This document shows, piece after piece, positions 44,882 to 48,149 of a stretch of 54,070 nt of DNA. Position numbers and translations under genes: made by a program. Source of the DNA: Candidatus Zixiibacteriota bacterium (GTDB lineage: Bacteria; Zixibacteria; MSB-5A5; GN15; FEB-12); NCBI GenBank assembly GCA_020351995.1, contig CP070674.1, positions 72,453 to 126,522 of the forward strand. Direction: 5' to 3'. Below the pieces are notes generated by a model. That model was not told the origin of the DNA, made no database searches, and saw only the letters and a program-made list of their open reading frames with translations. Each line of letters opens with the position of its first letter. Positions within the stretch are counted from its first letter, which is position 1.

Positions 44882-45535
44882 ATGAGTAGCCAGATCAAAA
44901 TAGTCAAACTCGGCCGGAGCGGAAACAGGGTCACCATCACGCTTTCGAACCAGGACCGACCGCTGGTAGTGTCTGAGGAAACCGTCCACCGGTATCGGCT
45001 GGTCGATGGAGTGGTGCTCACTCATTCCCAGCTCGAGCAACTCAGGCGGGAATCAGAACTCTACCTGTGCGACGGCGAATCGGCCCGACTACTCACCTTG
45101 CGGGAGCACTCCATCGGTGAGCTCCGCACGAAGCTGAAACGGAAGGACTTCTCTTCCGAAGTCATCGAGAATACCATCAGCAAGTACCGGAAGCGAGGAC
45201 TTCTTGACGACGCCCAATACGCTTACAAGCTCTCCATGAGGCTAATCGAAAACCGCCCTTGCGGGCTGTCATACCTGACTGCTCACCTGCAGCGGAAAAT
45301 GATTGCCCGCGACCTGGCCGAGAAGACGGCACAAATTGTGTTGTCGAATGTTGATGAGAAGGAGCAGGCGGTTCGCGCGCTGCGAAAGAAGTGGTCGCAG
45401 CTGGCCCAGTTTGAACTTGAGGAGGCCCGTAATAAATCTTATAATTACCTCGCTCGCCGGGGATTCAGCTATGATGCGGCCAGAAAGGCGTTCGAACAAC
45501 TGATAACCGAGCAACAAAAGGACTTCCAAGATTAA
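44882..45535 (+). CDS. recX: RecA regulator RecX
   Basis: A 217-residue RecX. Three-helix repeats are visible: LLTLREHSIGELRTKLKRKDFSSEVIENTISKYRKRGLLDDAQYAYKL, RPCGLSYLTAHLQRKMIARDLAEKTAQ and KSYNYLARRGFSYDAARKAFEQL. RecX binds RecA filaments and limits recombinase activity. recA itself is not in the window. The stop codon overlaps the proposed ATT start of alaS. Confidence 0.92.
   Translation: MSSQIKIVKLGRSGNRVTITLSNQDRPLVVSEETVHRYRLVDGVVLTHSQLEQLRRESELYLCDGESARLLTLREHSIGELRTKLKRKDFSSEVIENTISKYRKRGLLDDAQYAYKLSMRLIENRPCGLSYLTAHLQRKMIARDLAEKTAQIVLSNVDEKEQAVRALRKKWSQLAQFELEEARNKSYNYLARRGFSYDAARKAFEQLITEQQKDFQD
45516..45533 (+). promoter_or_regulatory. Ribosome binding site and ATT start of alaS within recX
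   Basis: AAAAGGA (45515-45521 region) precedes ATT (45531-45533) inside the recX end, and the A of the recX TAA directly follows. This is the only start compatible with the conserved AlaRS N-terminus. AUU starts are known from infC, where they allow autoregulation. Confidence 0.6.
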
Positions 45536-48149
45536 AACAGCAGAGATAAGAAAATCGTTTCTGGACTATTTTGCGAGGTATGACCATCGCATCGTTCCGT
45601 CCTCCCCCGTCATTCCATTTGACGATCCGACCATCCTGTTCACCAATGCCGGGATGAATCAGTTCAAGGATGTGTTCACAGGACGGCGCAAAGTGGATTA
45701 CGGGCGAGCGGCAAGTTGCCAGAAGTGTATTCGTGCCGGCGGCAAGCACAACGATCTTGACAACGTTGGCTTTACGGCGCGTCACCATACCTTTTTCGAG
45801 ATGCTCGGCAATTTTTCCTTCGGCGATTATTTCAAAGAGGAAGCCATTTACTACGCCTGGGAATGGGTGACAAAAGAACTCGGTTTGTCTGCCGACAGGC
45901 TCTACGCCACGGTTTATGAAACCGATGATGAAGCGTTTGATCTCTGGGAAAAAATAGCCCCCGAATTGAAGAATGGCCGTGTACTTCGCTTCGGCAAAAA
46001 AGACAACTATTGGTCGATGGGCGAGGTCGGGCCAGCCGGACCGTGCAGCGAGGTGCATTTTGATCGCGGTGAGAAATACGGTACCGGCCCGGACGATGTC
46101 ATCAACGGCGATACGGAACGGTTCGTCGAGATATGGAATCTCGTTTTCATGCAGTATGATCAACAGCCCGAAGGTTCTGTCGTGGACCTGCCTAAGCCCT
46201 CGGTTGATACCGGTGCGGGTCTCGAAAGAATCGCGGCTATTATGCAGAATGTCGAGTCCAATTACGAAATCGACGTGTTCAAATGTATTATCAAGGCCAT
46301 TTCCGATATAACCAAAGCCAAGTATGCCGATCATATTTCCTCACATCATGTCATTGCCGACCACCTTCGCGCGCTTGCCTTTGCCATAGCCGATGGCGCG
46401 GGTATCTCTAATGAAGGTCAGGGGTATGTTTTAAGGCGCATCCTTCGCCGGGCCGCCCGTCACGGCCGTCTTCTGGGGGCGCATGAACCGTTCATGTTCA
46501 GACTCGTTCCGCAATTGGTGAAGAAGATGGGCGAGGCTTACCCGGAACTTGAGGAAAAACAGACCCATATCGAAAACGTAATCAAAGTCGAGGAAGAGTC
46601 ATTCGGACGTACGCTTGAGACCGGGCTTGAGCATTTCGAAAGGATCGCGCCCAAAGCTGTGGACAGGGTGATTCCAGGCGAAGAAGTTTTTCGGCTATAC
46701 GATACTTACGGCTTCCCTTACGACCTTACGGAAATCATGGCCGCGGAAAAGGGGCTTGCCCTTGATCAGGAGGGTTTTGAGAAAGCGATGCATCGTCAGC
46801 GCGAACAATCCCGGGCCGCGGCGACATTTGAAAATCACTCCACTGAGATCGCCTGTCTCTACGATGAGAAACCTATCAAGGCTGCGGCCACCGAATTTGT
46901 TCGAGGCAACCTGTCTCTCGAGGCTGCCATAGAAGATGTGCGCCAGGTACAGAACGGCGATCAACCGACTTACGCTGTCGTTCTGGATCGAACACCTTTC
47001 TACGCTGAGTCCGGTGGACAACTAGGCGACACCGGCAAGATCTTCACCGATACCTTTGTGCTTACCGTGGGAGCCCTTTACCAACATCAAGACCATTACA
47101 TTCACGAGGGCATTCTAACCGAAGGAAACGCGGATGCTGTAAAGAACGGCATAACAGTCACGGCCGAGGTAGATTTTGAGCGTCGCTGGGATATTCAACG
47201 TAACCACACTGTTACTCATCTGACCCATGCGGCACTGCGGCGAGTGCTTGGGACGCATATCAGGCAATCCGGTTCCTATGTCGGGCCTGACCGGATGCGT
47301 TTCGACTTCTCGCATCACCAGCCGATGTCCCGCGATGAGATTCGCGCGGTAGAGGAAATCGTTAACAACGAGATTATCAGGGGCACGGCCGTCTCCACCG
47401 AGGTAATGGATATCGAGAGCGCCAAAAGTTCCGGAGCCATGGCCCTCTTTGGCGAGAAGTACGAGGACAAGGTGCGCGTGGTGTCGGTAGGCGACTTCTC
47501 AAAAGAACTGTGCGGTGGTACGCACGTAGCCGATATCAGTCAGATCGGACCGTTTTTTATTGTACTTGAAACCGGTATCGCTTCCGGAGTTCGGAGATTG
47601 GAGGCTATTACCGGGCGCGAAGCTATCAATTATATGCTCGAGACCAAGAAATATCGTCAGGATATCGCCTCCATCGTTGGTCGTCCTGAAATCGATTCCC
47701 TCGCGGGCGTCAGGCAACTCAAAGAAGAACACAATCTGCTCCAGAAGGAAGTCAAGCGAGTCAAAGCGGAGATGTTCTCCGGAAAGGGTCCGGCCATTGG
47801 CACCGAAAGCAAGCTCGGGAAGATCGTCTTCGTTACTCACAATTTCGAGCAGACCGACCGCGATACCATGGCCGGGTGGATTGACACCCAGAAAGCCCGC
47901 TCGGAGCCGCTGGTAGCGGTGGCTCTCGGCCATGTCAACGGCAAAGTTACTTACATGGCGGCGGCCAGCAACAAAGCTACAACAGAACAGAAAATTGACA
48001 TCGGAGGTCTTACAAAAGAACTGCTGCCTAAATTTGGTGGGCGCGGCGGCGGAAAGGTCTCCTTCGCCCAGGGAACAGTTGCCGACGATACAGCTGCTGA
48101 GCAACTGTTTAAGGACGCCAAAACACTGATTGCCGGCAAGAAGGAATAG
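45531..48149 (+). CDS. alaS: Alanyl-tRNA synthetase, probable ATT start
   Basis: About 872 residues from ATT at 45531. Motifs: KTAEIRKSFLDYFARYDHRIVPSSPVIPFDDPTILFTNAGMNQF (motif 1 region), HHTFFEMLGNFSFGDYF, TGAGLERIAAIMQ, the editing-site pattern HTVTHLTHAALRRVLG with CGGTHVADISQIG, and the C-Ala domain with GGRGGG. The first ATG (45654) would remove 41 conserved residues. In frame there is no ATG, GTG or TTG before it back to a stop at 45504-45506. AAAAGGA lies about 10 nt before the ATT, which overlaps the recX stop. Confidence 0.93.
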   Translation: MKTAEIRKSFLDYFARYDHRIVPSSPVIPFDDPTILFTNAGMNQFKDVFTGRRKVDYGRAASCQKCIRAGGKHNDLDNVGFTARHHTFFEMLGNFSFGDYFKEEAIYYAWEWVTKELGLSADRLYATVYETDDEAFDLWEKIAPELKNGRVLRFGKKDNYWSMGEVGPAGPCSEVHFDRGEKYGTGPDDVINGDTERFVEIWNLVFMQYDQQPEGSVVDLPKPSVDTGAGLERIAAIMQNVESNYEIDVFKCIIKAISDITKAKYADHISSHHVIADHLRALAFAIADGAGISNEGQGYVLRRILRRAARHGRLLGAHEPFMFRLVPQLVKKMGEAYPELEEKQTHIENVIKVEEESFGRTLETGLEHFERIAPKAVDRVIPGEEVFRLYDTYGFPYDLTEIMAAEKGLALDQEGFEKAMHRQREQSRAAATFENHSTEIACLYDEKPIKAAATEFVRGNLSLEAAIEDVRQVQNGDQPTYAVVLDRTPFYAESGGQLGDTGKIFTDTFVLTVGALYQHQDHYIHEGILTEGNADAVKNGITVTAEVDFERRWDIQRNHTVTHLTHAALRRVLGTHIRQSGSYVGPDRMRFDFSHHQPMSRDEIRAVEEIVNNEIIRGTAVSTEVMDIESAKSSGAMALFGEKYEDKVRVVSVGDFSKELCGGTHVADISQIGPFFIVLETGIASGVRRLEAITGREAINYMLETKKYRQDIASIVGRPEIDSLAGVRQLKEEHNLLQKEVKRVKAEMFSGKGPAIGTESKLGKIVFVTHNFEQTDRDTMAGWIDTQKARSEPLVAVALGHVNGKVTYMAAASNKATTEQKIDIGGLTKELLPKFGGRGGGKVSFAQGTVADDTAAEQLFKDAKTLIAGKKE

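Follow-up and report, generated by a model that had tools for sequence, protein, structure and literature searches.

A conserved AUU-type start codon predicted for alaS across an order of uncultured Zixibacteria-like bacteria

The question raised by this locus is where translation of alaS begins. The window, a stretch of 54,070 nucleotides from a Candidatus Zixiibacteriota genome, sits within a single 3.6-Mb contig. Its alaS frame is interrupted by a TAA at 45504-45506 and is open from 45507 onward, and a scan of this frame in the window found no ATG, GTG or TTG from 45507 to 45653, as a sequence-only reading had stated. The conserved N-terminus of alanyl-tRNA synthetase (AlaRS), IKTAEIRKSFLDYF...LFTNAGM, is encoded in frame between this TAA and the ATG at 45654, again as that reading had it; in the frame open from 45507 this N-terminus reads IKTAEIRKSFLDYFARYDHRIVPSSPVIPFDDPTILFTNAGMNQF. 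The start had been placed at an ATT overlapping the stop codon of recX and lying about 10 nt behind the stretch AAAAGGA. The overlap amounts to one shared base (45533), and the stretch is where it was said to be (Table 1), but its spacing to ATT is really 8 nt, or 9 nt when counted from AGG. The window contains a single AGG-N9-ATTAA pattern, as compared with 1.3 occurrences expected by chance. Thus, the motif alone proves nothing, and the evidence is its conservation.

Table 1. Features of the recX-alaS junction in the window
Feature	Position	Strand	Remarks
recX	44882..45535	+	217-aa ORF; the alaS ATT falls within its last codon GAT and stop TAA
Shine-Dalgarno stretch AAAAGGA	45516..45522	+	Within the last part of recX, with AGG (45519-45521) at -12 relative to ATT
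Predicted alaS start codon ATT	45531..45533	+	Aligned with Met1 of other AlaRS; AUU/AUC/AUA in 54 of 58 order members
recX stop codon TAA	45533..45535	+	One base in common with the alaS ATT; 36 of 58 order members alike
alaS, alanyl-tRNA synthetase	45531..48149	+	872 aa from ATT; open frame with full-length AlaRS homology
First in-frame ATG of alaS	45654..45656	+	Internal Met in LFTNAGMNQF; the 41 preceding residues are conserved in relatives

Start codons of alaS inside and outside the order

The order to which the window belongs consists of uncultured Zixibacteria-like bacteria; the relatives compared here are genome assemblies. We compared alaS 5' ends from the window's own family (f1; 41 ends), from the other families of the order (f2, 6; f3, 3; f4, 11) and from the rest of the class (37). 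Counts out of 58 refer to f1, f2 and f4, with genome G002 contributing two ends. At the codon aligned with Met1, these 58 carry ATT (44), ATC (9), ATA (1) or ATG (3), the last one starting at an upstream ATG. The proposed start of alaS at ATT 45531 is strongly supported by this alignment with relatives, in which this position holds AUU, AUC or AUA in 54 of the 58 ends. Relatives with ATG at the site, which the sequence-only reading had named as evidence against its proposal, number only 3 of 58 inside the order, where this objection fails.

As judged from these sequences, the lock on AUU is not absolute. Four of the 58 use AUG, three of them at the site itself (the main copy of G002, G017 and G084) and one, G049 (L116), eight codons upstream. 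The f3 genomes G038, G041 and G044 (L115, L117, L118) apparently start 13-17 codons upstream, with ATG in two cases and GTG in G044. The AlaRS proteins of f3 and of G049 apparently carry short N-terminal extensions, seemingly a way out of the AUU start. The two ends of G002 (G002:C1:1417361, L083; G002:C1:580926, L326) are peculiar in that one has its ATG just past a 100-N gap and the other has ATT behind recX and is cut off by a 100-N gap some 165 amino acids on; this doubling is likely to reflect scaffolding or a mixed assembly.

Outside the order but within the same class, AUG or UUG is found at the Met1 codon in 35 of 37 outgroup genes (ATG 32, TTG 3); in the remaining two, G066 has ATG one codon earlier and G116 is without clear assignment. 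A further 78 alaS loci came from other bacteria, the majority being Gammaproteobacteria. In 77 of them a canonical start is found from -4 to +2 codons around Met1, and the single exception, L063, turned out to be a member of the window's family.

The ATG at 45654 is the first canonical start in frame, and it would be the true one if ATT resulted from a sequencing error or from a wrongly chosen start. This reading is refuted by the relatives and, in our opinion, has next to no chance of being correct, as ATT recurs in independently assembled genomes and as the residues ahead of 45654 are conserved, with 71-91% identity among order members over the first 130 residues. Half of the AUU/AUC/AUA genes (27/54) have no canonical codon back to the in-frame stop, which in 13 of these 27 is located only two or three codons ahead of the start. 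An ATG is present two or three codons upstream in G021, G045, G048 and G058, where the Shine-Dalgarno sequence ends at or a few bases from this ATG, a spacing that is too short for normal use.

Conservation extends to the Shine-Dalgarno sequence at a spacing suited to initiation. AGG is present between -15 and -7 in all 54 AUU/AUC/AUA genes, in none of the 3 AUG revertants and in 13 of 35 outgroup genes (Fisher p about 4e-12 for the comparison with outgroups, shared ancestry being ignored), and it is located exactly at -12 in 46 of the 54. A conserved RNA structure around the start was considered and rejected, since folding the 54 sequences jointly, with the start codon as anchor, gave an empty consensus. 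On this comparative evidence the AUU start of alaS is real, conserved and associated with a Shine-Dalgarno sequence, and it is a property of the order, more general than the window alone.

The 54 relatives share ancestry and thus do not represent 54 independent events. In a rapidly built tree with 98 AlaRS fragments, many of whose branches are weak, the order forms one side of a supported branch, except that the outgroup G098, which has a long branch, falls inside. The minimum number of changes on this tree is 7 when AUU, AUC and AUA are set against all other codons and 14 when all codon types are distinguished. These numbers fit a history with one early switch away from AUG, several exchanges among AUU, AUC and AUA, and few returns to a canonical start. 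Comparison of the sequences shows that most, if not all, of the order inherited an AUU-type start from its ancestor and that this start rarely reverts to AUG.

The overlap with recX

Homologues of recX are located upstream of alaS throughout the order. In the 36 genes with the recX stop at +2, the alaS codon is ATT without exception, never ATC or ATA. This is what the arrangement requires, because a stop codon overlapping at +2 demands T as third base. It is conceivable that ATT was frozen by this overlap as a by-product of gene packing, since ATG would yield GATGAA with loss of the TAA. The uniformity of the 36 genes agrees with that idea, but the 22 genes that lack the +2 overlap largely refute it: they have ATC (9), ATT (8), ATA (1), ATG (3) or the upstream ATG (1), so that 18 of 22 retain AUU, AUC or AUA. 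The overlap is thus not the cause of the rarity of AUG, and we regard frozen packing as improbable. Coupling of alaS to recX, which the ATT had been suggested to permit, is not supported as the reason for this codon either. From these counts, the overlap decides between AUU, AUC and AUA but does not account for AUG being rare.

If ribosomes shifted to the +1 frame at the stop of recX (GAU UAA A), as in prfB, the product would be a RecX-AlaRS fusion protein and the ATT an internal codon. The fixed +2 offset in 36 genes and the SD-like AGG upstream would be in line with such a mechanism. In the other genes, however, the recX stop is found at -4, -5, -8, -9, -10, -17, -18 or +11 while AGG and the AUU, AUC or AUA stay put, and this varying offset argues against a fusion. 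In addition, the gap between the Shine-Dalgarno sequence and the slip site is shorter in prfB than the 8-9 nt found here (9 nt from AGG to AUU), which is the spacing of initiation, and the outgroups carry AUG at this very codon. We therefore consider frameshifting very unlikely.

Specificity for alaS and infC and the proposed role of IF3

A non-canonical start might be expected in many genes if start-codon selection were generally relaxed. This explanation was rejected on the basis of a screen of 161 homologous gene pairs, in which 400 kb of the window's genome were compared with 400 kb of a same-genus genome: homology starting far before the first canonical start was seen only in alaS and infC. 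The start of serS was ATG in 15 of 15 readable cases, which speaks against relaxation as well. The screen returned one further case of a different kind. A STAS-like gene (G000:C1, approximately 330100-330520; L262) changes frame within ten consecutive A (GGGCGAAAAAAAAAAGCGCC), and in the 400-kb sample of the same-genus genome G003 the corresponding position is likewise occupied by an A10 run. This run is a candidate slippage site that would join the gene to a second domain.

infC passed the family cut-off in 36 of 41 genomes. In the genomes read, its start is ATA, or ATC in a few, with a strong Shine-Dalgarno sequence in front. At G000:C1:313000 (L232), for example, the ATA start is found behind TAGGAGGAGTTC; the gene ahead of it, at 311741, is class II synthetase-like and probably thrS, a gene order as in thrS-infC of E. 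coli. Given that infC itself starts with AUA here, discrimination by IF3 is probably active in these bacteria. An initiator tRNA with another anticodon was also considered and discarded, as one canonical copy was found, in which the anticodon is CAU and the GGG/CCC stem is of the usual type. A variant initiator is unlikely, judged on the incomplete ARAGORN set of 34 tRNA kinds.

At codons other than ATG, GTG and TTG, IF3 makes initiation complexes less stable, and infC is autoregulated in this way (PMC5472188). By the same principle, sigR of Streptomyces, which has a GTC start, is repressed by IF3 (PMC5472188). Taking into account our data, we consider it likely that translation of alaS begins with the AUU at 45531, to which the Shine-Dalgarno sequence directs it, and that this ancestral start confers weak, IF3-sensitive initiation. 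Ordinary initiator tRNA would be used, with the AGGA inside the end of recX positioning the ribosome. Initiation would be weak because IF3 rejects AUU, AUC and AUA, and it would fall, as for infC, when free IF3 increases relative to 30S subunits. AlaRS synthesis would then be kept low and track the same IF3/ribosome balance that sets the level of IF3 itself. Ribosomes finishing recX may supply subunits to the alaS site, although the overlap would not be what preserves the odd codon.

The connection to initiation fidelity made by the sequence-only reading is favoured indirectly, in that changes of the start codon are nearly confined to AUU, AUC and AUA, the codons IF3 discriminates against, and in that infC starts with AUA here; the action of IF3 on alaS is something we infer. 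Regulation of alaS by IF3 is plausible, in part by analogy. That alaS and infC together form an IF3-governed set, in which an IF3-rejected start ties AlaRS synthesis to the IF3-to-ribosome ratio, is a tentative proposal that we would put at somewhat below even chances.

A serious rival is that AUU is the true start but does no more than hold AlaRS synthesis at a low and constant rate, with no regulation by the level of IF3, which we regard as quite possible though not probable. All comparative data fit this explanation equally well. Precedents are E. coli pcnB, whose expression is reported to be limited by its AUU start, and S. aureus cvfC1, where AUU cuts output with no effect of the medium (PMC13009471). 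On the other hand, AUG with a weaker Shine-Dalgarno sequence could do the same, yet that sequence is kept in 54/54 genes and is absent beside AUG. Moreover, raised IF3 was reported to inhibit both non-canonical starts and re-initiation at sites that lack a Shine-Dalgarno sequence (PMC2268962), so that some effect of IF3 on alaS is to be expected.

Relation to known AUU-type starts

To our knowledge, very few bacterial genes start with AUU, AUC or AUA. The well-studied one is infC, which encodes the factor that polices start codons. Like alaS, it is an essential translation gene with an IF3-discriminated codon (AUU, AUA or AUC; AUA or AUC also within the genomes studied here) and Shine-Dalgarno support. 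By contrast, alaS does not encode the discriminating factor, and any control by IF3 would thus be exerted in trans and not as a closed loop. E. coli pcnB resembles alaS in having AUU as a weak chromosomal start, but it is non-essential, whereas alaS encodes an essential aminoacyl-tRNA synthetase and overlaps a stop codon here. Streptomyces sigR is another gene besides infC with a conserved non-canonical start (PMC5472188); it differs in its GTC codon, in not encoding an aminoacyl-tRNA synthetase, and in that the effect of IF3 was measured for sigR. Conserved non-canonical starts with Shine-Dalgarno sequences are also known from S. aureus cvfC1 (AUU) and ccpN (AUA), and AUU and AUA starts yield about 10% of the output of AUG in this species (PMC13009471). 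These two starts were located by ribosome profiling. Their Shine-Dalgarno motifs are extended, whereas that of alaS is a short AGG(A) situated within recX. Finally, an AUU start was proposed for lepA in two species (PMC1780047).

AUU starts as such are already known; what is unusual here is an AUU-type start on an essential gene kept across an order. A literature search of papers outside subscription found no report of an AUU start for alaS or any other aminoacyl-tRNA synthetase. One practical consequence is that gene finders limited to ATG, GTG and TTG would clip the conserved N-terminal segment of AlaRS in these bacteria. With such a start kept throughout the order, alaS would offer a clear example from nature of IF3-sensitive control exerted in trans. 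If true, it would provide a link at the level of translation between tRNA charging capacity and ribosome content.
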